Origin: Epulopiscium sp. Nele67-Bin004
Lineage (GTDB): Bacteria > Bacillota_A > Clostridia > Lachnospirales > Cellulosilyticaceae
Assembly: GCA_002007315.1 (NCBI GenBank)
Contig: LNZQ01000049.1
Coordinates: 1-38,845, forward strand
Direction: 5' to 3'
DNA length: 38,845 bases
Every line of letters starts with the position of its first letter. The stretch's first letter is position 1. The notes beneath the pieces were generated by a model. It did not search any database, was not told where the DNA came from, and saw only the letters and a program-made list of their open reading frames with translations. This document shows positions 992 through 36,239 of this stretch, one piece after another. Both the position numbers and the translations under genes were made by a program.

Positions 992-1135
992 TACCTATCG
1001 ATACTGGGGAAGTTAAGCCTGTGGAGAGTTATATCAAATGTTATTAAGGGGAAAGTGCTGAGGACAGACTCTATGAAGCAGGAAGATGCAAGACGAAAAA
1101 CCTAATAGGTATAAGTCGCATCACAGTAGAAATAT
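992..1135 (+). ncRNA. Putative omega RNA and right end of the TnpB element
   Basis: The sequence directly after tnpB is non-coding and GC-richer than its surroundings. It contains the run GAAGCAGGAAG often seen at the 3' end of IS605-type elements. It ends in an imperfect hairpin: GATGC-AA-GAC at 1085-1094 pairs with GTCGCATC at 1115-1122 across a bulge, with an inner CCTA/TAGG stem. In this family the guide RNA derives from the 3' part of tnpB plus the right end, and the hairpin would be the subterminal structure recognised by the transposase. Exact RNA ends and the cleavage site cannot be fixed from one copy. Confidence 0.45.
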
Positions 1136-23790: not shown

Positions 23791-23801
23791 ATAGTAAGGT
23801 T

Positions 23802-23834
23802 AAAAAGAGGGGTGACTGGTTATGGTCACCCCTT
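23802..23834. terminator. Hairpin between convergent genes, minus-strand terminator
   Basis: GGGGTGAC pairs with GTCACCCC across an eight-base loop. On the minus strand the stem is followed by TCTTTTT, a fair terminator for the amt transcript; on the plus strand the T run is poor. It probably stops transcription from both sides. Confidence 0.65.
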
Positions 23835-23880
23835 AGTTATAAGGTTAGGTTTAAAAAAAGGTAAGGTATTCCTAAGTATA

Positions 23881-23917
23881 TGCCCCAAAGTTCTCCGCTA
23901 GAGTCCCAATTGGGGCA
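23881..23917 (-). terminator. Stem-loop just after the amt-PII stop
   Basis: TGCCCCAA and TTGGGGCA form a perfect 8-bp stem with a 21-base loop. It starts five bases downstream of the amt stop and lacks a T tract, so it may stabilise the 3' end with the actual terminator further on. Confidence 0.4.
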
Positions 23918-23922
23918 AGATA

Positions 23923-25575
23923 TTAATCTTGAAGTGCGTCATATCCTTCTTCGCCTGTGCTAATACGAAGCACATTGTCAATTGAATCAATAAAGATTTT
24001 CCCATCACCGATATTTCCAGTGTATAAAACTCCTTTAATTGCATTTACAGCTGTGTCAACTGGAACTTTGCATATAATAACTTCAACTTTAACTTTTGGC
24101 AAAAGAGTTGCCTCAACAGCTGTACCACGGTAATATTCTGTATGCCCTTTTTGGATTCCGTATCCAAGAACTTGAGCAACTGTCATACCTGTAATTCCAA
24201 CTTCTTCTAGTGCAAGTTGCAATTTTGCAAGGCTAGTTTGTTTTGTAACAACTGTAATTTTTGTAAGTGGTGCGTCAGGTCTAGAGTTGTTTATAACTGG
24301 AATATCTTTAGTTGTTGCAGTTATATCATCTTCTTTTTCAAGCGTAAGCGGGCTGCTCATAACAAATCCAGCATAACTAGTTTGAAGTGCGTGCTCGCTA
24401 TAGTCAAGACCGATAGTTTCTTCTTCAACTGAAACACGTAATCCGTGGATAGATTTAATCATGTGGAATGCAAATGTCATAGTCACAGTCGTCCAAGCGA
24501 TGATAGCTGCAAGACCGATAATTTGAATAATAAGTAAGCTTATACCGCCACCATAAAATAAACCACCATCAACAGCAAGAAGACCAACAGCAAGTGTTCC
24601 CCAAATACCGTTTACACCGTGAACTGCAACAGCACCAACAGGGTCATCAAGCTTTAATTTGATATCAATAAATTCAACAGCTACTACTACTAAAATACCA
24701 GATACGATACCAACGATTGTTGCACCGATAGCATCAAGGTTTGCACAACCAGCTGTGATACCAACAAGACCAGCAAGTGCCGCATTTAGTGTCATAGAAA
24801 CGTCAGGTTTCCCTGTTTTTTTCCAAGTAAACGCCATAGTTGTAACACAAGCTGCCGCAGGTGCAACTGTTGTAGTTAAAAATATAGAGCCAAGCCCTCC
24901 AAGCCCTTCAAGTTCAGTTGCGGCTGCACCATTAAATCCGTACCAGCCAAACCATAAAATAAATACCCCAAGTGCTCCAAGTGTTAAGTTGTGACCTGGA
25001 ATAGCTTTTGCTACGATTTCGCCTGTTTTTGGGTCTTTCACGTATTTTCCAAGACGTGGCCCAAGAAAACTGATACCGATAAGTGCAGAAATACCACCAA
25101 CTGTATGTATAGCTGCAGAACCTGCAAAGTCAATAAAGCCCATTTCAAAAAGCCATCCTTGCTCGTTCCACACCCAACCTGCTTCGATTGGATATACGAT
25201 AGCACTTAAAATTACGCTATACCATAAGTATGAACTAAACTTAGTTCTTTCTGCCATTGCTCCAGAAACGATAGTAGCAGTTGTTGCACAAAATACAACG
25301 TTAAATACGAAACTTGCCCAGTCAATATTATCATAATCGAAAAATACGTCCATGTTTGGCACTCCAATAAACCCGCCAACATAATTTTCCGACATCATCA
25401 AACTATAACCTAGCAATGCAAACACCATCGTTCCCATCGAAAAGTCCATTAAGTTTTTCATTATAATATTTCCAGAGTTTTTTGCTCTAGTGAATCCTGA
25501 TTCAACCATTGCGAAGCCGACTTGCATAAAAAATACTAGTGCTGCACCGATTAAAAACCAAATTCCAAAATCCAT
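23923..25575 (-). CDS. Ammonium transporter fused to a PII (GlnB/GlnK) domain
   Basis: The 550-aa protein joins two parts usually encoded by adjacent genes. Residues 1 to about 400 are an Amt channel with eleven helices, the N-terminal GFAMVESGFTRAKNS, the IHTVGG His and the AFHMIKS His forming the twin-His pore. After a ~35-residue linker, residues 437-550 are a complete PII domain (GITGMTVAQVLGYG, QKGHTEYYRG, the LPKVKVEV strand, YTGNIGDGKIF). PII normally plugs Amt when nitrogen is plentiful, sensing ATP/ADP and 2-oxoglutarate. Here the sensor is tethered. The T-loop residue equivalent to Tyr51, the uridylylation site, is Val, so GlnD-type control is excluded. The start has AAGGAG 7 bases upstream; longer frames run into the leader hairpin. 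It is divergent from glnA, and its leader carries an attenuator. Confidence 0.95.
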   Translation of the reverse strand: MDFGIWFLIGAALVFFMQVGFAMVESGFTRAKNSGNIIMKNLMDFSMGTMVFALLGYSLMMSENYVGGFIGVPNMDVFFDYDNIDWASFVFNVVFCATTATIVSGAMAERTKFSSYLWYSVILSAIVYPIEAGWVWNEQGWLFEMGFIDFAGSAAIHTVGGISALIGISFLGPRLGKYVKDPKTGEIVAKAIPGHNLTLGALGVFILWFGWYGFNGAAATELEGLGGLGSIFLTTTVAPAAACVTTMAFTWKKTGKPDVSMTLNAALAGLVGITAGCANLDAIGATIVGIVSGILVVVAVEFIDIKLKLDDPVGAVAVHGVNGIWGTLAVGLLAVDGGLFYGGGISLLIIQIIGLAAIIAWTTVTMTFAFHMIKSIHGLRVSVEEETIGLDYSEHALQTSYAGFVMSSPLTLEKEDDITATTKDIPVINNSRPDAPLTKITVVTKQTSLAKLQLALEEVGITGMTVAQVLGYGIQKGHTEYYRGTAVEATLLPKVKVEVIICKVPVDTAVNAIKGVLYTGNIGDGKIFIDSIDNVLRISTGEEGYDALQD

Positions 25576-25594
25576 AAACATTCTCCTTTCCAAT

Positions 25595-25651
25595 AAAAAA
25601 GCGTGCATTTTATCCTAAACTTTGTCATAGATAAAATGCACGCCTTTGTGC
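25595..25651 (-). promoter_or_regulatory. Transcription attenuator in the amt-PII leader
   Basis: Read on the minus strand, the leader has two mutually exclusive structures. The terminator is a perfect 14-bp stem (25601-25614 with 25630-25643, GATAAAATGCACGC arm) followed by six T residues, ending about 10 bases before the ribosome site. The competing hairpin (25638-25651) is GCAC-AAAGGC-GTGC, a 4-bp stem with a hexaloop having A at position 1 and G at position 4, as in RNA sites bound by ANTAR proteins. It takes up six bases of the terminator's 5' arm. The neighbouring gene is divergent, so this terminator can act only on amt. Binding by the nearby ANTAR protein would promote read-through. 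Confidence 0.75.
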
Positions 25652-25659
25652 GAAAACTT

Positions 25660-25689
25660 TTTATAATTTATATTTATGAATTGTATCAA
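25660..25689 (-). promoter_or_regulatory. Candidate sigma-A promoter of amt-PII
   Basis: On the minus strand, TTGATA (25689-25684) and TATAAA (25665-25660) are separated by 18 bases. Transcription would begin a few bases before the small ANTAR-like hairpin of the leader. The region is very AT-rich, so alternatives exist. Confidence 0.5.
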
Positions 25690-25863
25690 ACTTTGATTAC
25701 TATTTCAATACTAAATTTGAATTTTGTATAAAATATGTAATATTTCGGTAATTTTTACTATGTACATATATAATAATATATAAACTATATAAATTTATTT
25801 GTGTAACTATACAAAAATTATTGTTTATAATAAAGATAATTTCTATAATAGTACTAGTTAGAT

Positions 25864-25891
25864 TTGTTAAAATTGTCATAAATAGTATAAT
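25864..25891 (+). promoter_or_regulatory. Possible upstream promoter of glnA
   Basis: TTGTTA and TATAAT with a 16-base spacer lie about 60 bases upstream of the better glnA promoter. It may be a second start or chance in AT-rich DNA. The stretch from here back to the amt promoter (about 25690-25863) is featureless AT-rich sequence. Confidence 0.3.
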
Positions 25892-25923
25892 ACTAATTAA
25901 ATGGAAAAATTTATCGACATCTA

Positions 25924-25952
25924 TTGAACAAACATATAATTTGTTCTATAAT
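25924..25952 (+). promoter_or_regulatory. Sigma-A promoter of glnA
   Basis: TTGAAC and a perfect TATAAT are exactly 17 bases apart, and the predicted start falls just before the leader hairpin. The spacer is occupied by an inverted repeat (listed separately), which also includes part of the -35 box. Confidence 0.75.
25926..25946 (+). promoter_or_regulatory. Inverted repeat (operator candidate) inside the glnA promoter
   Basis: GAACAAA at 25926-25932 and TTTGTTC at 25940-25946 are a perfect 7-bp inverted repeat around seven bases. It overlaps the -35 box and fills the spacer, so a dimeric protein bound here would block RNA polymerase. It does not match the Bacillus GlnR/TnrA consensus (TGTNA-N7-TNACA). 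Confidence 0.45.
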
Positions 25953-25959
25953 AAGTAGA

Positions 25960-25996
25960 GAACATTTTAGGTTCATCAAGTGATGAACTTTTTTTT
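25960..25996 (+). promoter_or_regulatory. Transcription attenuator in the glnA leader
   Basis: GTTCATC (25971-25977) and GATGAAC (25982-25988) form a tight 7-bp stem with loop AAGT, followed by eight T residues, only about 10 bases before the AGGAGG of glnA. An alternative hairpin, GAAC (25960-25963) with GTTC (25971-25974), loop ATTTTAG, uses four bases of the terminator's 5' arm, so the two exclude each other. No gene upstream reads this way, so the terminator must act on the glnA leader. The alternative loop does not show the A1/G4 hexaloop rule of ANTAR sites, unlike the amt leader. Confidence 0.7.
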
Positions 25997-26023
25997 ATAC
26001 AAATTTAGGAGGACTTAGGGACG

Positions 26024-27295
26024 ATGGTAGATGATATACTAAATTTTGCACAAGAAGCCGACGTAAAATTTATAAGATTAGCATTTTGTGACCCGTTTGG
26101 TGTACACAAAAACATCTCAATTATGCCAACAGAGTTAAAAGACGCATTTGAACGAGGAATTTCTTTTGATGCAAGCTCTATTAGGGGTTTTGAAGAAGTA
26201 AGTCGTTCTGATTTATTTTTATTTCCAGACGCAACAACACTGACCGCTCTACCTTGGCGACCAGAACCAGGTTGTGTGATAAAATTTTTCTGCGATATCA
26301 AATATGCCGATGGTTCTATATATATAGGAGATAGTAGAAATATACTTAGAAATGTAATTAAAAAAATTTCAAAAATGGGATATGGGGCAAGAATAGGCTC
26401 TGAAAGTGAGTTTTATCTTTTTAAATTAGATGATTATGGAGAACCAACATATACTCCTATTGATAATGGAACGTATTTTGACGTTGCTCCGCTTGACCAA
26501 GGCGAAGATGTTCGACGTGAAATTTGCTTAGTGTTAAGTGAGATGGGCTTGATGCCAGAAACTTCTCACCATGAGCAAGGTCCGGGGCAAAATGAAATAG
26601 ATTTTAAATATAGCGACGCTATGACATGTGCAGATAATTTGCTTGCATTTAAAAATGTTGTAAAAATTATATCAGCACGACATGGGCTTTTTGCTTCATT
26701 TATGCCAAAACCTTTGGAAGGCAAAAGTGGTAGCGGATTGCATATAAATATTTCTCTAATGAAAAATGGTAGAAATGTTTTTTCAAAACAGCATTTAGAA
26801 CAAGATGTTAGAGATAGTTTCATAGCTGGAATTTTAGCTAGAATTTCAGAAATAACATTATTTTTAAACTCGACTGTAAATTCATATGATAGACTTGGTG
26901 CATTTGAAGCTCCAGATTATGTATCTTGGTCACATCAAAATAGATCGGCATTAATTCGTATCCCAGCACAAGGAGATACAAAAACTAGAATTGAGCTACG
27001 TTCGCCAGACGGTGCATCAAACCCCTATATTGCATTTGCGTTAGTGCTATCGGCTGGGATCTATGGAATAGAAAATAACCTTAAACTTGAAGACGAAAAT
27101 ACAAAAATAGAAATGTTGCCACAAAGTTTGGAAGAAGCAATATCAAAAGCAAAAAATTCTTTGTTTGTAAAAGAAGTATTAGGAGAAGAATTTGTGGCAA
27201 AATATATAACTATTAAAGAACTAGAATTACAAAATTACTATGACTGTGAAGACAAAAAAGATTTTTATACTAAGGAATATTTTTGCAAATTATAG
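26024..27295 (+). CDS. glnA: Glutamine synthetase, type I
   Basis: The 423-aa enzyme makes glutamine from glutamate, ammonia and ATP. Family blocks appear in order: the N-terminal beta-grasp (VKFIRLAFCDPFGVHKN), SSIRGFEEVSRSDL, the catalytic-domain GSESEFYLF, HHEQGPGQNEIDF, the GSGLHINISL His and the late RIELRSPDGASNPYIAFA. It is about 20 residues shorter than the usual 440-445 aa bacterial type, mostly by a compact N-terminus and short tail, but all signature segments are kept. AGGAGG stands 11 bases before the ATG. An ANTAR regulator follows 24 bases after the stop, an arrangement known in clostridia. Control is likely at two levels: a palindrome in the promoter and a terminator in the leader. 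Confidence 0.95.
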   Translation: MVDDILNFAQEADVKFIRLAFCDPFGVHKNISIMPTELKDAFERGISFDASSIRGFEEVSRSDLFLFPDATTLTALPWRPEPGCVIKFFCDIKYADGSIYIGDSRNILRNVIKKISKMGYGARIGSESEFYLFKLDDYGEPTYTPIDNGTYFDVAPLDQGEDVRREICLVLSEMGLMPETSHHEQGPGQNEIDFKYSDAMTCADNLLAFKNVVKIISARHGLFASFMPKPLEGKSGSGLHINISLMKNGRNVFSKQHLEQDVRDSFIAGILARISEITLFLNSTVNSYDRLGAFEAPDYVSWSHQNRSALIRIPAQGDTKTRIELRSPDGASNPYIAFALVLSAGIYGIENNLKLEDENTKIEMLPQSLEEAISKAKNSLFVKEVLGEEFVAKYITIKELELQNYYDCEDKKDFYTKEYFCKL

Positions 27296-27319
27296 TTGTT
27301 GTTAAGGAGGATGCGTGTG

Positions 27320-27883
27320 ATGCTAAATGTTTTAATGGTCTCATATGTACAACCAAGCAAAGAAGTATTATCTGATATGTTACCAGTCTCGCATGAGATA
27401 TACACTAGTCATTCATGTAGTGAAGCAAGGCGATTACTTTTAGAAAGAAAAATAGATATTGTTATTATAAACACGCCACTAAAAGATGAAACAGGTGAAA
27501 AATTAGCTAAAGATATCGCTTGCCAAGGTGCTACACAAGTTATTTTGATGGTTGGGTCAGAACATTATGAACAAATTGCTAGTAAAGTTGAACAATTAGG
27601 TGTAATAATGGTTGCAAAGCCACTAAATAAAAAAATACTAGAAACATCTTTGAATATTGCTAAAGTAACATATAATAGATTGAGGCTATTAGAACGTGAG
27701 AACACACTACTAAATAAAAAAATTGATGATATTAGAATTATTAGTAGGGCAAAATGTATACTAATAGAGAAGGGCATGAGCGAGTTACAAGCACACAAAT
27801 ATATAGAAAAAGAAGCTATGGATACACGAAGAACTAGAAAAGAAATATCTGAAACCATTATACAAAACTATGAAGTTAGTTGA
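27320..27883 (+). CDS. ANTAR-domain antiterminator with pseudo-receiver (NitR-like)
   Basis: The 187-aa protein has an N-terminal receiver-like domain (about 1-115), a connecting coiled coil (about 116-135) and a C-terminal ANTAR domain ([21 protein letters not shown] then [13 protein letters not shown] ending, here [12 protein letters not shown]). ANTAR domains bind paired small hairpins in nascent RNA and prevent terminator formation. The receiver lacks the phosphorylatable Asp: its beta-3 strand reads DIVIINTPL, Asn in place of Asp, so control by a histidine kinase is unlikely. The start ATG lies 9 bases after AAGGAGG; two closer in-frame starts overlap the site. The gene follows glnA and precedes pyrG in one direction. 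Leader terminators before amt, glnA and gltB are plausible targets (inference). Confidence 0.9.
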
Positions 27884-27897
27884 TGAAAGGAGCAAGT

Positions 27898-29487
27898 ATG
27901 AGTAAATTTATTTTTGTAACAGGGGGTGTAGTATCAGGTCTTGGAAAAGGTATTACAGCAGCAAGTTTAGGACGTCTGCTAAAACAACGAGGACTGAAAG
28001 TAACTGCACAAAAGCTGGACCCATATATGAACGTAGACCCAGGAACGATGAGTCCATATCAACATGGAGAAGTGTTTGTAACAGAAGATGGAGCGGAAAC
28101 AGACTTAGATTTGGGACATTATGAGAGATTTATTGATGAAGATTTAAACAAACATTCAAACCTAACCTCTGGTAAAATATATTATCATGTGCTAAATAAA
28201 GAAAGAAGTGGCGGATATCTTGGGCAAACAGTTCAAGTTATACCACATATTACAAATGTCATAAAAGAATTTATATATTCGAGTGCTGAAAATAGTGATA
28301 TACTTATAACAGAAATTGGAGGAACAACTGGAGATATCGAAATTCAACCGTTCCTTGAAAGTATTAGACAAATATCTTTAGAAGTTGGTCGTGAAAATTG
28401 TATTTTTATACATCTAACGCTAGTTCCATATATAAAATCGAGTGGAGAACACAAAAGCAAGCCTACGCAACATTCGGTAAAAGAATTACGTTCGATAGGG
28501 ATTTCGCCAAATATTATAGTTGCGAGAGCAGATGAGGAAATACCATCTGATATATTAGAAAAAATCTCGCTATTTTGTAATGTGCCAACGGACTGTGTTA
28601 TACAAAATACAACGCTTGACTCGCTATATGAAGTTCCGCTTATGTTGCATGAAAAAGGTTTGGACGATGTAGTTTGTAGAGAGCTAAAACTTGATACAAA
28701 GCAACCTGATTTAACTGAGTGGCGACAAATGGTGGACAATATTTATTCGGCTAAAAAGTCTGTAAATATTGCAATTGTTGGGAAATACGTAAAACTTCAT
28801 GATGCATATCTTTCGGTTAGTGAAAGCTTGCGACATGCTGGGTTTATGTGTGGGGCAAATGTTAACATAAGTTGGATAGACTGCGAAGAAGTGACAAGCG
28901 AAACAAGCCACGAAATATTTAAAGATATAGATGGAATTGTTGTGCCAGGTGGATTTGGAGACCGTGGTGTTGAAGGAAAAATTGAAACGTGTAAATATGC
29001 TCGTGAAAATGACGTTCCGTTCCTAGGAATTTGTCTTGGTATGCAAGTTGTTGTTATTGAATTTGCAAGAAACGTGCTAGGGCTTAATGATGCACACTCA
29101 ATGGAATTTGATGAAAACACAACGAACCCTGTAATCCACATTATGGAAGACCAAAAAGAGATTACTAACAAAGGTGGCACAATGCGTCTTGGTAAGTATG
29201 ACTGTAAGCTTAAAGATAACTCTAAACTTAAAGAGTTGTATGGGTCAAGCACGATAACAGAAAGACATAGACATCGTTTTGAATTTAACAATAAGTATAA
29301 AGATTTAGTTGAGCAACAAGGACTTGTTATAAGTGGGACATCACCAGATGAAAGTTTGGTTGAGGCAGTGGAGCTTGATGGGCACAAATATTATGTTGCA
29401 GCACAATTTCACCCAGAGTTTAAAAGTCGTCCAAACAAGCCACACCCAATGTTTTTAGGATTAGTAAAATCAACGCTTGAGGAGTGA
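27898..29487 (+). CDS. pyrG: CTP synthase
   Basis: The 529-aa enzyme converts UTP to CTP with ATP and glutamine. The synthetase half begins [15 protein letters not shown] and contains [20 protein letters not shown] and GGTTGDIE. The glutaminase half (from about residue 290) contains the nucleophile Cys379 in GICLGMQ and the late His/Glu of QFHPEF. Length is typical. The ATG follows AAAGGAG; two in-frame ATGs just upstream overlap the regulator's end and lack a site. It lies in the glnA-led string, sensible for a glutamine-consuming enzyme, and dapF starts four bases after its stop. Confidence 0.97.
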
Positions 29488-29491
29488 GAAA

Positions 29492-30328
29492 ATGAATTTT
29501 TGGAAAATGCATGGAATAGGAAATGATTATATTTATTTTGATTGTATGGAAAAAGAATTAGACAACCCTGCAGATGTAGCGATTAAGTTATCGCATCGCA
29601 ATTTTAGTATCGGCGGCGATGGTATCGTTATGATATGCAGTTCAGATGTTGCAGATGCAAAAATGCGTATGTTTAACTTAGATGGTAGCGAAGGAAAAAT
29701 GTGTGGAAATGCAATTAGATGCGTTGGGAAATATTTGTATGACAATAAAATCGTTCAAAAAGACCAAGTAAGCATTGAAACGCTTAGTGGAATTAAATAT
29801 CTTGATATGACAATTAAAAATGATAAAGTTGAAAGTGTTAAAGTTGATATGGGTAGCCCTATTTTGGCACCAAAAGACATTCCTACAACTTTAGATGGTG
29901 ATATAATTGTTGACCGTGAAATAACAGTTGATGGGAAGCAATACAACGTTACATGCGTGTCTATGGGTAACCCTCACTGTGTAATTTTTATTGATGAAGA
30001 TGTAAATGATTTGAATTTAGCCCAAATTGGTCCTAAGTTCGAGAAAAACGAAATATTCCCAGAGCAAGTGAATACGGAGTTTGTACAAGTGTTGTCTGAT
30101 GGAAGTTTGAAAATGCGAGTGTGGGAGCGTGGAAGCGGTGAAACGCTTGCATGTGGAACAGGGGCATGTGCAGTTGCTGTTGCGGCGGTTCTTTGTGGCA
30201 AAGCTGAAAAAAATACAGATATAATTGTACATTTAATAGGTGGAGATTTAACTATAAACTATACTGACGAAACTGTTTTTATGACAGGTGGAGCGACAAA
30301 AGCTTTTGAAGGTACAGTTGAGGTTTAA
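29492..30328 (+). CDS. dapF: Diaminopimelate epimerase
   Basis: The 278-aa enzyme interconverts LL- and meso-diaminopimelate for lysine and peptidoglycan synthesis without a cofactor. The two catalytic cysteines are visible: Cys71 in KMCGNAIRC and Cys221 in LACGTGACA. The start MNFWKMHGIGNDYIYFD is the standard N-terminus. GAGGAG, its ribosome site, lies inside the end of pyrG, and only four bases separate the genes, so coupling is likely. It is followed by dapL, which makes its substrate. Confidence 0.97.
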   Translation: MNFWKMHGIGNDYIYFDCMEKELDNPADVAIKLSHRNFSIGGDGIVMICSSDVADAKMRMFNLDGSEGKMCGNAIRCVGKYLYDNKIVQKDQVSIETLSGIKYLDMTIKNDKVESVKVDMGSPILAPKDIPTTLDGDIIVDREITVDGKQYNVTCVSMGNPHCVIFIDEDVNDLNLAQIGPKFEKNEIFPEQVNTEFVQVLSDGSLKMRVWERGSGETLACGTGACAVAVAAVLCGKAEKNTDIIVHLIGGDLTINYTDETVFMTGGATKAFEGTVEV

Positions 30329-30355
30329 TTTATATATTTTAAAGGAGAATAACAA

Positions 30356-31537
30356 ATGCAAATTAATAAAAATTTTTTAGAATTAGAAGAAAGCTATTTG
30401 TTTTCAACGATAGCAAAAAAAGTAAACGAGTTTCAAGCAGCAAATCCAGAAGCAAAAGTAATTAGACTTGGTATAGGTGACGTTACGTTGCCACTTACAA
30501 AAACAGTTGTTGACGCTATGCAAAGTGCAGTTGCAGAAATGGCTGACCCAGCAACTTTTAGAGGGTATGGACCAGAGCAAGGATATGACTTCTTGCGTCT
30601 TTCTCTACAAGAATATTACAAATCAAAAGGTGTGGAGCTTGAGGCAGACGAAATTTTTGTAAGTGATGGAGCAAAAAGTGACCTTGGAAACATATTAGAC
30701 ATTTTTGCAGATGGAACAGCACTTATTCCAAACCCAGTGTATCCAACGTATCTTGATACAAACACTATGGAAGGTCGCAAAATCAACTTACTTGATGGAA
30801 ATGAAAAAAATAGCTTTTTGCCAATGCCAGAAGACGGAAACGGTGGCGATTTAATATACTTGTGTTCACCAAACAATCCAACAGGTGCAACATACACTAG
30901 AGAGCAACTTAAAGCTTGGGTTGACTATGCAAATGCAAACAATGCAGTTATTTTGTTTGACAGTGCTTACGAATTTTTTGTAAAAGACAAGTCACTACCA
31001 ACAAGTATTTTTGAAATTGAAGGAGCAAAAACTTGTGCAATCGAGTTTTGTTCATTCTCAAAAACAGCAGGATTTACAGGAACAAGATGTGGTTACACAG
31101 TTGTGCCACATGACCTTGTGTGTGAAGGAACGAAACTTAACAAACTTTGGTTAAGACGTCAAACTACTAAATTTAACGGTGTGCCATACATCATTCAAAA
31201 AGGTGCAGCGGCAGTATTTACAGAGCAAGGTAAAAAAGAAATTGAAGAAAACGTTAACTATTACCTTGAAAATGCAAAAATCATCAGAGAAACTTGCGAA
31301 AAATTAGGTTTCTGGTTTGTAGGTGGAGACAACTCACCATATATTTGGATTAAATGTCCAGATGGGCTAGACTCTTGGGAGTTTTTTGACAAGCTATTAA
31401 ATGAAATTTACGTTGTTGGAACTCCAGGCGTTGGCTTTGGAACAAACGGGCAAGGTTTCTTTAGAATTTCAGCATTTGGAATGAGAGAAAATGTAATTGA
31501 AGCAATGGATAGACTTGAAAAATTGTATACAAAATAG
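30356..31537 (+). CDS. dapL: LL-diaminopimelate aminotransferase
   Basis: The 393-aa PLP enzyme makes LL-diaminopimelate directly from tetrahydrodipicolinate and glutamate, bypassing the acyl route. It has the family's N-terminal IRLGIGDVTLPL, the substrate-binding CSPNNPTGATY, and the PLP Lys236 in FCSFSKTAGFTG. The DapL route is known in several clostridia. Pairing with dapF gives two consecutive steps of one pathway, drawing on glutamate from the neighbouring GltB. AAAGGAG precedes the ATG. It probably ends the glnA-led transcript, as a new promoter follows. Confidence 0.95.
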   Translation: MQINKNFLELEESYLFSTIAKKVNEFQAANPEAKVIRLGIGDVTLPLTKTVVDAMQSAVAEMADPATFRGYGPEQGYDFLRLSLQEYYKSKGVELEADEIFVSDGAKSDLGNILDIFADGTALIPNPVYPTYLDTNTMEGRKINLLDGNEKNSFLPMPEDGNGGDLIYLCSPNNPTGATYTREQLKAWVDYANANNAVILFDSAYEFFVKDKSLPTSIFEIEGAKTCAIEFCSFSKTAGFTGTRCGYTVVPHDLVCEGTKLNKLWLRRQTTKFNGVPYIIQKGAAAVFTEQGKKEIEENVNYYLENAKIIRETCEKLGFWFVGGDNSPYIWIKCPDGLDSWEFFDKLLNEIYVVGTPGVGFGTNGQGFFRISAFGMRENVIEAMDRLEKLYTK

Positions 31538-31557
31538 AAGTTAGTACTACCTACGTA

Positions 31558-31586
31558 TTGCAAATGATTGAAAAATAGATTATAAT
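31558..31586 (+). promoter_or_regulatory. Sigma-A promoter of gltB
   Basis: TTGCAA and a perfect TATAAT are exactly 17 bases apart, 20 bases after the dapL stop. The predicted start lies at the base of the leader's first hairpin. Confidence 0.75.
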
Positions 31587-31589
31587 GTA

Positions 31590-31650
31590 GCGTAAAGGAC
31601 GCAGACGTTCTCAAATAAGTAAATCTTGTTATGAGTACGTCTGTTTTTTT
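31590..31650 (+). promoter_or_regulatory. Transcription attenuator in the gltB leader
   Basis: At the predicted 5' end of the transcript, GCGT-AAAGG-ACGC (31590-31602) forms a small hairpin. Immediately after it, CAGACGT (31602-31608) pairs with ACGTCTG (31637-31643), extended by CTCA/TGAG beyond a T-T mismatch, followed by seven T residues: a full terminator ending 11 bases before the ribosome site. The two structures share only one base, so competition is tighter in space than in sequence. The loop AAAGG matches the start of the amt leader loop AAAGGC but is one base shorter than a canonical ANTAR hexaloop. The terminator could in principle serve dapL, but the promoter lies between. Confidence 0.65.
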
Positions 31651-31676
31651 ATACAAAATAGAAAGGGGCTAGGGTA

Positions 31677-34600
31677 GTGATAAATTTTACTGAGGCAAAA
31701 GGCAATATCGGATTATATGATAGTAGTTTTGAACATGACAATTGCGGAATAGGAGCAGTTGTAGATATAAAAGGAAGAAAGACGCATCAAACTGTTATTG
31801 ATGCTTTAAAAATTGTTGAAACTCTTGAACATAGAGCAGGGCAAGATGCAAGTGGGGAAACAGGTGATGGTGTTGGAATTATGGTGCAAGTAAGCCATAA
31901 ATTTTTTAGTAAGGAAGCAAAAAAACTTGGATATAAAATAGGAAATGAACGTGAATATGGGGTAGGAATGTTCTTTTTTCCACAAAATGAAAATACTCGC
32001 AAGCAAGAAATGAAATTATTTGAAATGATTGCAAAAAAAGAAGGTGGGCAATTTTTAGGGTGGCGACAAGTGCCAGTTGACACAGCAGTTATAGGGAAAG
32101 TTGCATTTGATTGTATGCCATCAATTTGGCAAGCGTTTCTTAAAAAGCCAAAAAACATTAAAGAAGGTGCAGATTTTGACCGTAAGCTATATTTGATTAG
32201 ACGTGTATTTGAGCAGGCTAAAACAGCTGACACTTACGTTTGTAGTTTATCAAGCAGAACAATTGTATATAAAGGTATGTTTTTGGTTGCACAACTTGGT
32301 CAGTTTTATTTAGATTTGATGGACGAAGATTATGTTTCGGCAATTGGTATGGTTCATAGCCGTTTCTCAACTAACACTATGCCTAGCTGGAAACGTGCAC
32401 ACCCAAATAGAATGATACTTCACAACGGTGAAATTAACACAATTAAAGGGAACGCTGACCTTATGATTGCACGTGAAGAAACAGTTACAAGCGATTACTT
32501 AGGTAAAGAAATAGAAAAAGTTTTCCCAATTGTTGACCTTGAAGGGTCTGATAGTGCGATGCTTGATAACTCGCTGGAGTTTATGGTTATGAATGGGCTA
32601 GATTTACCGCAAGCTGTTATGGCGACTATTCCTGAACCATGGGCAAATGATAATCAAATGTCTAAAACTAAGCGTGATTTTTATGCATATTATGCAACAA
32701 TGATTGAACCTTGGGACGGTCCAGCTGCGATATTATTTAGCGATGGGGACGTTATGGGTGCAATACTTGACCGAAATGGACTTAGACCGTCAAGATATTA
32801 TGTAACGAAAGATGATAGACTTATTTTGTCAAGCGAAGTAGGGGTTCTACCTATTGCAGAAAAAAATGTTGAACTTAAAGACAGACTTCGCCCAGGAAAA
32901 ATGTTGTTAGTTGACCTAAACAAAGGTGAACTGATTGATGATAGCAATTTAAAGGAAGATTATGCGACAAGACAACCTTATGGGGAATGGCTTGACAAGT
33001 ATTTAGTGTCACTTGCATCACTGCAAATACCAGCTATTAGACCAGTTGAATATTCAGATGAGGAGCTTTTAAGACTTCAAAAAGCTTTTGGATATGGTTA
33101 TGAAGATACGACAGAGTGTATTTTGGCGATGGCTAAAAACGGTATTGAGTCGACAGGGGCAATGGGTGATGACACTCCGCTTGCACCATTAAGCGAAAAT
33201 CAACCTAAACTTGCAAATTACTTTAAGCAACGTTTCGCACAAGTTACAAATCCACCAATTGATGCGATACGTGAAAAAGTTGTTACAGATACAAGTGTAT
33301 ACATCGGTGCAAAAGGTAACATATTGATGGAACAACCTGAAAACTGTCGTGCTCTAAAAGTAAGCAACCCGATTTTGACAGAAGTTGACTTGCTAAAAAT
33401 TAAGCATATGAACAAAGCAGGATTTAAAATAGTTACAGTTTCTATACTATACTACAAAAATCAGAACTTGCACAAAGCGTTGGAGCAAATGTTAGTTGAA
33501 GTTGATAGAGCTTATCGTGATGGGGCAAATGTAGTTATATTATCGGATAGAGGCGTTGATGAATATCACAAAGCGATACCATCACTGCTTGCAGTTTCGG
33601 CAGTTTCAAGCCACCTTGTAAAAACTCGCAAACGTACGGCACTAACGATTGTTCTTGAAAGTGCAGACCCTAGAGACGTGCATGATTTTGCGACGTTGCT
33701 TGGATTTGGTGCAGCAGCCGTGAACCCATATCTTGCACACAACACGATAAAAGATTTGGTAGACAAAAAGCTACTAAACAAAGATTATTATGTTGCTGTA
33801 AGTGATTATAACAAAGCCGTAATCGATGGGATAGTAAAAATTGCGTCAAAAATGGGAATTTCAACTATCCAAAGTTATCAAGGAAGTAGAATTTTTGAAG
33901 CTGTAGGTATTTCTTCAAAAGTTATCGAAAAATATTTCGTTGGAACGCCAACACGTGTTGAGGGGATAGATCTTGACGATATTGAAGATGATGTAAGCGT
34001 GCATCACAAAGCAGCGTTTGACCCACTTTCACTTGACACGTCAAGCCAACTTGAAAGCAACGGTATACACAAAATGCGTGCAGGTAAAGCAGACCATTTG
34101 TATACACCAGAAACGTTATTTATGTTGCAACAAGCAGTTAGAACTGGTGATTATGACTTGTTTAAACAATATACGAGTAAAGTTAACAACGGACATGTAA
34201 GTCATTTGCGTAGTTTGCTAGACTTTAAGTTTATGGAAGACGGCGGAATTGATATAAATGAAGTTGAAGACGAGAGAGAAATTGTTAAACGATTTAGCAC
34301 AGGACCTATGAGCTATGGTGCATTAAGTAAAGAGGCACATGAAACGCTTGCAATTGCTATGAACAACCTTGGAGCAAAAAGCAACACAGGTGAAGGTGGC
34401 GAGGAAGAAGAACGTTACAAAGTTGTTCCAAATGAGCCAAACCGCAACAGTGCTGTAAAACAAGTTGCATCAGCTAGATTTGGGGTAACAAGCAAATATT
34501 TAGTTAGTGCGAGAGAAATCCAAATTAAAATTGCACAAGGGGCAAAACCTGGAGAAGGTGGACATTTGCCAGGAGCAAAAGTTTATCCTTGGGTTGCAAA

Positions 34601-36239
34601 AACTAGATATTCAACACCAGGGGTAGGGCTTATAAGTCCGCCACCACACCATGATATTTATTCAATTGAAGACTTGGCACAGCTTATTTATGACTTGAAA
34701 AATGCAAACCGTCATGCAACAATTTCAGTAAAACTTGTTTCAGATGCAGGTGTTGGAACGGTTGCAGCAGGTGTTGCAAAAGCTGGGGCAGGGCACATCA
34801 CTATAAGTGGATATGACGGTGGAACAGGTGCTGCACCAAAAACATCTATATTAAACGCAGGTATGCCTTGGGAACTTGGAGTTGCGGAAATTCACCAAAC
34901 GCTTATAATGAACGGGCTTAGAAGCCGTATCAAACTTGAGGCAGACAGCAAGATGATGAGTGGGCGTGACCTTGCAGTTGCGGCGATGCTTGGAGCGGAG
35001 CAATTTTCATTCTCGACAGGTCCATTAGTGGCTATTGGCTGTGTTATGATGAGAGTTTGTAACCTTGATACGTGTCCGACAGGGGTTGCAACGCAAAATC
35101 CAGAACTTAGAAGTAGATACACTGGTAAGCCTGAATACGTTGAAAACTTTATGTTGTTTATGGCTAGAGAACTTCGTGAGTTTATGGCGAAACTTGGGGT
35201 TAGAACAGTTGAAGAACTTGTTGGACGCGTAGATTTACTTGAGATGAGAAAAGATAACTTAACTAAACGTGCAAGCAAAATTGACTTATCAAGATTGTTA
35301 TTTAACCCGTTGGTTGAGGACAATTGCGTAAGTTATAGAGAAGGCGATAAATACGACTTCAAACTTGAGTCAACTACGGATATGGCTAAAATTATACCAG
35401 GGTTTAAATCGGCGTTTGAAAAAGGAATGAAAAAAGCTATCAAAATTGATGTAAACAATTTGGATAGAAGTCTTGGGACAATTTTTGGATCTGAAATAAC
35501 AAAACGCTATCAAAATGAGCTTGAGGACGACACATTTACTGTAAAATGTACAGGAAGTGTTGGGCAAAGTTTTGGGGCATTTATTCCTAAAGGGTTGACG
35601 CTTGAATTAACAGGTGATACAAATGACTATTTAGGTAAAGGTCTATCTGGTGGTCAAATAATTGTGTATCCATCTAAAGATGCAACTTTTGATAAGAGTA
35701 CAAACATCGTAACTGGAAACGTTGCATTGTATGGCGCAACTCAAGGTAAAGTATACATCAGCGGTGTTGCTGGAGAGCGTTTCGGGGTTAGAAACTCAGG
35801 AGCTACGGCAGTTGTTGAAGGTGTTGGTGACCACGGTTGTGAATATATGACAGGTGGAATGGTCGTTGTGCTTGGAAGAACGGGCAAAAACTTTGGGGCA
35901 GGTATGTCTGGAGGGATTGCGTATGTGCTTGATGAACACAATGAGTTTTATTTAAGAGTAAATAAAGCGATGGTATCTATTGATAAAGTTGAAGATAAAT
36001 ATGATATCAAAAACTTGAAAACTATGATAGAAGAACACGCAGAAAAAACAGGTAGCGAAAAAGCGAAACAAATACTTGATGACTTTAGCGGATATTTACC
36101 AAAGTTCAAAAAAGTGTTGCCGTTTGATTATGACAAAATGATGAGATTGATCGCTAAAATGATGGAAACAGGTTTAACTCAGGAGCAAGCACAAATTGAA
36201 GCGTTTTACAGTCTTAAAGGGAATAGGGGGTTTCCTTAG
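31677..36239 (+). CDS. gltB: Glutamate synthase large subunit, last few residues probably replaced at a contig join
   Basis: The protein of about 1520 aa transfers the glutamine amide to 2-oxoglutarate. It begins with a short propeptide, then the Ntn-glutaminase nucleophile Cys23 (HDNCGIGAV). The central and FMN domains follow, with the iron-sulfur Cys cluster in MRVCNLDTCPTGVATQ (about residues 1120-1135), then the C-terminal beta-helix with repeated Gly motifs (GAFIPKGLTLELTGDTNDYL, GMSGGIAYVLDE). Translation starts at a GTG nine bases after AAAGGGG. The protein is complete up to IEAFYSL; the last few residues (KGNRGFP) and the stop lie at the transition to vertebrate-like DNA, so the true end may be a few residues different. 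The small subunit gltD, expected next, is absent because the bacterial sequence stops here. Confidence 0.95.
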   Translation: MINFTEAKGNIGLYDSSFEHDNCGIGAVVDIKGRKTHQTVIDALKIVETLEHRAGQDASGETGDGVGIMVQVSHKFFSKEAKKLGYKIGNEREYGVGMFFFPQNENTRKQEMKLFEMIAKKEGGQFLGWRQVPVDTAVIGKVAFDCMPSIWQAFLKKPKNIKEGADFDRKLYLIRRVFEQAKTADTYVCSLSSRTIVYKGMFLVAQLGQFYLDLMDEDYVSAIGMVHSRFSTNTMPSWKRAHPNRMILHNGEINTIKGNADLMIAREETVTSDYLGKEIEKVFPIVDLEGSDSAMLDNSLEFMVMNGLDLPQAVMATIPEPWANDNQMSKTKRDFYAYYATMIEPWDGPAAILFSDGDVMGAILDRNGLRPSRYYVTKDDRLILSSEVGVLPIAEKNVELKDRLRPGKMLLVDLNKGELIDDSNLKEDYATRQPYGEWLDKYLVSLASLQIPAIRPVEYSDEELLRLQKAFGYGYEDTTECILAMAKNGIESTGAMGDDTPLAPLSENQPKLANYFKQRFAQVTNPPIDAIREKVVTDTSVYIGAKGNILMEQPENCRALKVSNPILTEVDLLKIKHMNKAGFKIVTVSILYYKNQNLHKALEQMLVEVDRAYRDGANVVILSDRGVDEYHKAIPSLLAVSAVSSHLVKTRKRTALTIVLESADPRDVHDFATLLGFGAAAVNPYLAHNTIKDLVDKKLLNKDYYVAVSDYNKAVIDGIVKIASKMGISTIQSYQGSRIFEAVGISSKVIEKYFVGTPTRVEGIDLDDIEDDVSVHHKAAFDPLSLDTSSQLESNGIHKMRAGKADHLYTPETLFMLQQAVRTGDYDLFKQYTSKVNNGHVSHLRSLLDFKFMEDGGIDINEVEDEREIVKRFSTGPMSYGALSKEAHETLAIAMNNLGAKSNTGEGGEEEERYKVVPNEPNRNSAVKQVASARFGVTSKYLVSAREIQIKIAQGAKPGEGGHLPGAKVYPWVAKTRYSTPGVGLISPPPHHDIYSIEDLAQLIYDLKNANRHATISVKLVSDAGVGTVAAGVAKAGAGHITISGYDGGTGAAPKTSILNAGMPWELGVAEIHQTLIMNGLRSRIKLEADSKMMSGRDLAVAAMLGAEQFSFSTGPLVAIGCVMMRVCNLDTCPTGVATQNPELRSRYTGKPEYVENFMLFMARELREFMAKLGVRTVEELVGRVDLLEMRKDNLTKRASKIDLSRLLFNPLVEDNCVSYREGDKYDFKLESTTDMAKIIPGFKSAFEKGMKKAIKIDVNNLDRSLGTIFGSEITKRYQNELEDDTFTVKCTGSVGQSFGAFIPKGLTLELTGDTNDYLGKGLSGGQIIVYPSKDATFDKSTNIVTGNVALYGATQGKVYISGVAGERFGVRNSGATAVVEGVGDHGCEYMTGGMVVVLGRTGKNFGAGMSGGIAYVLDEHNEFYLRVNKAMVSIDKVEDKYDIKNLKTMIEEHAEKTGSEKAKQILDDFSGYLPKFKKVLPFDYDKMMRLIAKMMETGLTQEQAQIEAFYSLKGNRGFP

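Follow-up and report, generated by a model that had tools for sequence, protein, structure and literature searches.

In a contig of Epulopiscium sp. Nele67-Bin004 (LNZQ01000049.1, assembly GCA_002007315.1; 38,845 nt, analysed at full length and called the window below), short leaders precede amt, glnA and gltB, the genes of an ammonium transporter, glutamine synthetase and glutamate synthase. We consider it likely that these leaders are transcription attenuators read by an ANTAR protein encoded next to glnA, with the amt leader in canonical form and the gltB and glnA leaders carrying diverged loops. The amt leader can be firmly assigned, on its predicted structure, as a clear and canonical member of a motif widespread in Clostridia. 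Sequence comparison carries the anatomy of the leaders, their conservation and covariation, their position at the predicted transcription start, the lack of a second hairpin above chance level and the link to ANTAR genes.

Leaders of amt, glnA and gltB

An earlier sequence-only reading of this DNA had described a promoter, a small hairpin and an overlapping intrinsic terminator in each of the three leaders; this layout was found again for amt, glnA and gltB, the hairpin chosen for gltB being the part that did not stand. In the amt leader, on the minus strand, the promoter TTGATA-18-TATAAA (10/12; 25660..25689), read from the sequence and returned by a loop-blind scan, ends its −10 box 8 nt before the base of the hairpin GCAC-AAAGGC-GTGC (25638..25651, minus strand), which the scan also returned and which is kept with changed loops in relatives. 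The loop AAAGGC is a hexaloop with A1 and G4, as the rule for ANTAR target RNAs has it. The terminator (25595..25643, minus strand; arms 25643-25630 and 25614-25601, then six T) has GCGTGC of its 5′ arm in common with the hairpin, and is followed by a Shine–Dalgarno (SD) sequence and the ATG at 25575. An alternative amt promoter, TTGAAA-17-TACAAT at 25708-25680 with TG preceding the −10 box, came from a listing that held only promoters ending in T.

The glnA leader, on the plus strand, has the promoter TTGAAC-17-TATAAT (10/12; 25924..25952), found by the promoter scan, and 7 nt after its −10 box the hairpin GAAC-ATTTTAG-GTTC (25960..25974, plus strand), returned by the loop-blind scan. Canonical glnA leaders, for instance the one at locus L053, share its stem GAAC/GTTC. 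The loop ATTTTAG has seven bases, with A1 kept and G4 lost; thus it departs from the A1/G4 hexaloop rule, a departure that the sequence-only reading had rightly pointed out. The terminator GTTCATC-AAGT-GATGAAC with its T run (25969..25998, plus strand; stem 25969-25990) includes the hairpin 3′ strand in its 5′ arm, with an SD sequence and the ATG at 26024 downstream.

In the gltB leader, also on the plus strand, the promoter scan gave TTGCAA-17-TATAAT (10/12; 31558..31586), and the loop-blind scan placed the hairpin GGAC-GCAGAC-GTTC (31597..31610, plus strand) 10 nt after the −10 box, in register with relatives that have GAAC-AATGGC-GTTC (L112) or GAAA-AAAGGC-GTTC (L080) at this place. The loop GCAGAC keeps G4 and has G instead of A at position 1, outside the A1/G4 rule. 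The terminator (31604..31650, plus strand; stem 31604-31643 and seven T) includes the 3′ strand of this hairpin in its 5′ arm; an SD sequence and the GTG at 31677 follow. The hairpin proposed for gltB earlier, GCGT-AAAGG-ACGC (31590-31602, plus strand), has a pentaloop and is probably not the one at work: 3 nt separate its start from the −10 box, so that its 5′ strand is probably partly upstream of the RNA start, and it shares just one or two bases with the terminator. We replaced it with GGAC-GCAGAC-GTTC, which has normal spacing and full terminator overlap; of the two leader loops said to begin with AAAGG, the amt loop AAAGGC does so, the gltB loop being GCAGAC. A change from A1 to G as in the window gltB loop was also seen at L059:8642, where the hairpin GAAC-GAGGGA-GTTC (G1 and G4 in the loop) stands in the same promoter–terminator layout.

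In all three leaders the hairpin 3′ strand is reused by the terminator, which makes the two structures mutually exclusive. Stepwise folding of growing transcripts, done with approximate transcript starts (the gltB stretch began at 31592, inside the hairpin 31590-31602), predicted that the small hairpin forms first and is replaced by the terminator once the 3′ arm of the latter appears.

The loop-blind scan asks for a promoter, a hairpin 5–12 nt after the −10 box and an overlapping terminator, and ignores the loop sequence. In the window it returned three places, exactly the amt, glnA and gltB leaders. We then have the scan of a 1.78 Mb set (79 ANTAR loci, loci of the Epulopiscium family and the window, both strands), with a promoter required and one terminator mismatch allowed: 76 rows were returned, 67 of them with AANGNN hexaloops, window amt among them. 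The nine rows with other loops correspond to seven sites (three rows are registers of one L017 site); two are window glnA and gltB, and one (L024) is an AAAGGC attenuator read from the other strand. Twelve more AANGNN hairpins with a promoter in this set had no terminator by the scan's test. The loci had been picked for ANTAR, amt, glnA or gltB genes, which biases counts of gene types and leaves contrasts between loops and promoters unaffected. Such a contrast is seen among hairpins that overlap a terminator. For C-G closed hexaloops, a promoter scoring 10/12 or better, with its −10 box ending 5–12 nt upstream, was present for 47 of the 77 with AANGNN loops and for 0/97 with other loops; it was present for 1/414 of the hairpins with loops of 4, 5, 7 or 8 bases.

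Could AT-rich intergenic DNA next to unrelated terminators have produced this layout by chance? Promoter-like sites taken by themselves would agree with such an origin, being no commoner in 23800-32500 than in shuffled sequence (26 versus a mean of 33.5). The combined layout, on the other hand, is rare, is confined mainly to one loop class and one gene set, and occurs in the window in the three leaders only; together with the loop contrast this makes chance a highly improbable explanation.

The single-hexaloop motif in Clostridia

We collected 78 core leaders, window amt included; some are probably chance finds (e.g. those at L006 and L040 and the AAAGTG-loop hit in L169). The hairpin 5′ strand, the strand shared by both structures and the terminator strand co-vary across the 78 leaders, which were found by a search that required pairing and did not require base changes. 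Stem variants include GAAC/GTTC, CAGC/GCTG, AGAC/GTCT, TAGC/GCTA, ACAC/GTGT and GATC/GATC. Alignment A3 holds 22 of the 33 leaders with short loops, five having been left out of the first alignment, A2 (28 sequences), and six having been dropped as misaligned. Changes on both sides were observed in A3 for 9 of 12 terminator pairs and 4 of 5 hairpin pairs, and the covariation score exceeded all 500 shuffles for both helices, with pairing having been part of the selection.

In 62 leaders the promoter scores 9/12 or better, and among these the hairpin base lies 5–12 nt after the −10 box in 49 and 16–33 nt after it in the remaining 13. The published rule for ANTAR targets is a pair of hairpins (PMC3369931, PMC8164766), and the 13 leaders with a longer gap could be taken to hide a degenerate, overlooked first hairpin. 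The 49 others leave little or no RNA upstream of the hairpin. A second, upstream hexaloop hairpin (P1) was found in 5 of the 78 leaders versus 4.7 expected from shuffles, not above chance; a finder run with the same settings picks up paired hairpins in front of EutA in L224 and L227 (2 of 11 EutA loci). We therefore rejected the view of these leaders as ordinary two-hairpin targets, which we regard as quite unlikely. The single hairpin per leader, which had struck the sequence-only reading as unusual, appears instead to be the rule for this motif, and by sequence each of these leaders is an attenuator with one hexaloop, located where the transcript is predicted to begin.

Downstream genes of this first set were named from window proteins or from one Pfam-scanned representative per cluster. 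The leaders precede amt (21 leaders), glnA/glnN (17), gltB-like genes (12) and asnA (7), more rarely gdhA (3), purC (3) and a GXGXG protein gene (2), and in single cases asnB, carA, purA, purB, guaA and pyrG; an acyltransferase, an AAA protein and two unnamed proteins encoded downstream are probably noise or neighbours.

Some arrangements deserve separate mention. Culturable relatives that carry such leaders include Romboutsia lituseburensis (L074), Sedimentibacter saalensis (L053) and Niameybacter massiliensis (L067). At L088 (∼1351-1470) two attenuators, CAGC-AAAGGC-GCTG and then ACAC-AAAGGC-GTGT, stand in tandem before one amt. In L188, L189, L191, L197 and L217 (∼1500-1800) divergent promoters were seen with a hexaloop attenuator starting each operon, glnN (asnA in L188) on one side and a gltB-like operon on the other; one side has the CAGC stem, the other GAAC or GGAC. 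The same leaders were also seen at ANTAR loci labelled as Treponema, Desulfobulbaceae and Endomicrobia (L028, L035, L043, L052, L076), as a result of either gene transfer or misbinned contigs.

A covariance search in related genomes had been suggested by the sequence-only reading. We searched 245 genomes of the class with the covariance model R1, made from the terminator helix and neighbouring sequence of the 22 leaders, and with PF03861; strong matches to the motif were found to track the presence of ANTAR genes. R1 matched 54 of the 245 genomes at an E-value of 1e-4 or better, and 50 of the 54 have an ANTAR gene over the cut-off; ANTAR genes are present in 123 of the 245 genomes (Fisher test 1e-13, relatedness ignored). 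At the 30 loci returned, a hexaloop hairpin was present in 29 and a promoter 5–12 nt upstream in 26; R1 holds the hairpin 5′ strand as sequence, so that hairpin counts are not fully independent of the model, while promoter counts are. The next genes at these loci, named by best match to the first set, are mostly glnN, asnA, a gltB-like amidotransferase gene, amt and purC. A further hit, G001:C88:4283 (L219, 34.9 bits), was not counted as it has no stable hexaloop stem.

In the Epulopiscium family a hexaloop hairpin (stem of at least 3 bp, followed by a T run) was found in 21 of 27 amt leader rows, or in 20 of 26 if the duplicate L156 is set aside. Six rows do not qualify: in L087 the hairpin is present and a run of four T is absent, and the others are L089, L090, L106 and two distant paralogues, L101 and L109. 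Changed loops in family amt leaders are AATGGG and AAAGGC on 3-bp stems, AACGAC and AAAGAC. Canonical leaders were also seen before asnA in the closest relative (L218) and before glnN in two other genomes of the family (L164, L169).

The ANTAR protein and the proposed control

Immediately after glnA lies the gene of a NitR-like protein with a receiver-like domain and an ANTAR domain (27320..27883, plus strand; PF03861, E-value 4.6e-12), in agreement with what the sequence-only reading had stated. The protein is 76% identical to an Epulopiscium protein. In a search of the NCBIfam library no family exceeded its cut-off for it; in a fold search the matches, among the 50 listed, are mainly to receiver domains, with EutV and Rv1626 as full-length ANTAR proteins and AmiR not listed. 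In the window, and in 71 of the 79 ANTAR loci, a glnA match ends <400 nt upstream of the ANTAR gene. Of the 24 genomes of the Epulopiscium family, 17 have an ANTAR gene over the cut-off, and each of these has one. The phosphoacceptor Asp of EutV is absent from the window protein, which has Asn at this site; across the 79 loci the residues are N (68), D (8), S (2) and Q (1), and phosphorylation is therefore probably not the general signal. In an alignment read by eye, the EutV RNA-contact residues K143, K147, Y164 and M172 correspond to R, R, H and M in the window protein; 78 of the 79 loci conserve this His and this Met, and the remaining one is not aligned there. We also observed that the window ANTAR domain is one residue short between Glu and Lys of LIE-KGMSE, a residue present in 23/23 relatives (alignment A1).

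We infer the following course of control. RNA polymerase would start at or just before the small hairpin, and soon after the terminator, whose 5′ arm contains the hairpin 3′ strand, could be formed. When nitrogen is short, the ANTAR protein would bind the single hexaloop, hold the hairpin and so block the terminator, letting transcription read through into the operon; otherwise transcription would stop at the terminator. That the protein acts by holding the hairpin and preventing the terminator is the most likely direction of control, by analogy with EutV and NasR. The signal would probably come through a partner, feedback-inhibited GlnA or P-II, because the receiver-like domain is mostly without the phosphorylated Asp; the position of glnA next to the ANTAR gene suggests sensing through glutamine synthetase, or else through the P-II domain fused to Amt.

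More broadly, we lean towards the view that across many Clostridia a single hexaloop right at the 5′-end serves by itself as the whole ANTAR antiterminator: the protein would catch the first hairpin to be transcribed, and a recruitment hairpin would not be needed. One glnA-linked protein with a pseudo-receiver domain would in this way run a nitrogen regulon (amt, glnA, glnN, gltB-like genes, asnA, gdhA and purine genes), and in the lineage of the window some loops would have drifted off the rule, so that control of gltB and glnA is graded or rewired.

A number of observations weigh against the reading of the leaders as ANTAR-controlled attenuators. EutV antitermination needs both hairpins (PMC8934654, PMC3369931), and one hexaloop may not suffice. 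Tyr164, the partner of G4 in EutV, is His in the window protein, as in AmiR. The ends of the window gltB loop, G1 and C6, pair in the fold and leave a tetraloop. The pair-type count of the terminator helix in A3 is not above that of shuffles (54/500 reach its value). Matches to R1 with E-values between 1e-4 and 0.01 have no significant association with ANTAR genes (11/17 and 13/26); the weak ones (0.001-0.01), with ANTAR-positive and ANTAR-negative genomes at 13:13, we treated as noise. Also, 49 of the 123 ANTAR-positive genomes have no R1 match even at an E-value of 0.01 or better, perhaps partly because R1 under-detects leaders with long terminator loops. In the family, G009 and G018 carry the motif in their amt leaders (L110, L100) and have no ANTAR hit, perhaps because these assemblies are incomplete.

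The four strong-motif genomes of the 54 that have no ANTAR hit raise the question of whether the hexaloop is read by another RNA-binding factor or by a small ligand. This seems improbable given the ANTAR genes in the other 50, and given that a hexaloop with A1 and G4 in overlap with a terminator is what has been published as the mark of ANTAR targets (PMC3369931). Two family genomes, G014 and G015 (L089, L090), lack the ANTAR gene, R1 matches and the amt hexaloop alike. Rfam at gathering thresholds named no leader in the window or in the nine loci searched, and the motif would be very small for an aptamer.

The remaining points concern glnA and gltB. A canonical hexaloop was present in 0 of 15 family regions upstream of glnA and in 1 of 10 upstream of gltB, and by eye we saw no terminator after the promoter in the glnA leaders of L002, L003 and L141. 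Set beside the amt counts, these numbers speak against a regulon of three operons in this lineage. Of the single-regulator regulon proposed by the sequence-only reading, ANTAR attenuation over ammonium uptake and assimilation is retained, while the glnA and gltB loops fall outside the rule and are rarely canonical in the family. In this lineage, then, ANTAR control could be restricted to amt (and to the unlinked asnA and glnN), with the glnA and gltB leaders as relics whose terminators still lower expression and which the ANTAR protein no longer binds; given also the diverged loops in the window, we see this as a serious alternative, somewhat short of an even chance. Both window leaders, however, keep the promoter spacing, the stem and the terminator overlap, and they make up two of only nine off-rule rows in the 1.78 Mb; gltB moreover keeps G4, the base on which EutV stacks (PMC8934654). 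The gltB and glnA leaders are either diverged members of the motif or relics, and their control in the window may be weaker, altered or lost.

As for the genes themselves, amt (23923..25575, minus strand) encodes an ammonium transporter with a C-terminal P-II domain (PF00909, E-value 2.1e-116; PF00543, E-value 1.2e-19; above the cut-off for TIGR00836). The fusion of Amt with P-II is common to the window and Epulopiscium relatives and could link transporter, nitrogen sensor and ANTAR switch with one another. Glutamine synthetase is encoded by glnA (26024..27295, plus strand; PF00120, E-value 1.2e-97) and the large subunit of glutamate synthase by gltB (31677..36239, plus strand; NF008730 above cut-off, PF01645, PF00310). 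The same series of genes, amt, glnA, ANTAR, pyrG, dapF, dapL and gltB, is found in Epulopiscium sp. Nuni2H_MBin001 (L001), where an extra open frame (799 codons) separates amt from glnA. Elsewhere in the window, at 1018-1084 (plus strand), a RAGATH-18 RNA (Rfam RF03064; 56.9 bits versus a gathering score of 44.9) sits upstream of an open reading frame starting at 1301.

Relation to known systems

The gene of NitR, an ANTAR protein of Clostridium saccharobutylicum, is presumably placed beside glnA, as is the ANTAR gene of the window. According to a review (PMC6316151, citing Stutz et al. 2007), NitR induces the glutamine synthetase and glutamate synthase (GS/GOGAT) genes by antitermination under nitrogen limitation. 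To this picture we add leaders of amt, asnA, glnN and gdhA, the occurrence in the Epulopiscium lineage and the rule of one hexaloop per leader. The review also describes sensing through glutamine synthetase for TnrA in Bacillus, similar to what we propose for the glnA-linked ANTAR protein. AmiR is controlled by a partner protein. Its receiver-like domain is without phosphorylation residues (PMC8934654); the domain in the window protein likewise lacks the phosphoacceptor, its neighbour here being glutamine synthetase.

It is already known that ANTAR proteins act through dual hairpins on amt/P-II and on the genes of glutamate and glutamine synthases, and that NitR controls clostridial GS/GOGAT genes; Ramesh et al. 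(2012, PMC3369931) list ammonium transporters, P-II and glutamate and glutamine synthases among dual-hairpin targets. What is new here is the single-hexaloop attenuator variant, firm for amt and diverged for gltB and glnA. In the open literature searched we found no description of single-hexaloop ANTAR attenuators; earlier ones may exist outside it, in Stutz et al. (2007) or in the supplementary data of Ramesh et al. Published searches for ANTAR targets define the element by two stem-loops (PMC3369931, PMC8164766), and because of this requirement the single-hexaloop class would be missed by design. The class suggests that Clostridia, Epulopiscium relatives included, coordinate ammonium uptake and assimilation by RNA read-through.

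The leaders resemble the dual-hexaloop RNAs of EutV, NasR and AmiR in having an A1/G4 hexaloop, a short stem and overlap with an intrinsic terminator; they differ in that a single hairpin is present and the transcript is predicted to begin at it. Walshe et al. (2022, PMC8934654) reduce the binding motif to one hexaloop. In their account EutV occupies hexaloops singly, and sites with just one may exist, for which they call for searches; they expect such sites where the timing of the polymerase is irrelevant, and give reasons why antitermination by EutV takes two hairpins. Contrary to this expectation, the single hexaloops described here sit on terminators, and dozens of natural one-hexaloop terminators, whose short leaders suit in vitro transcription, make it directly testable how far single hexaloops act, the question raised by these authors.

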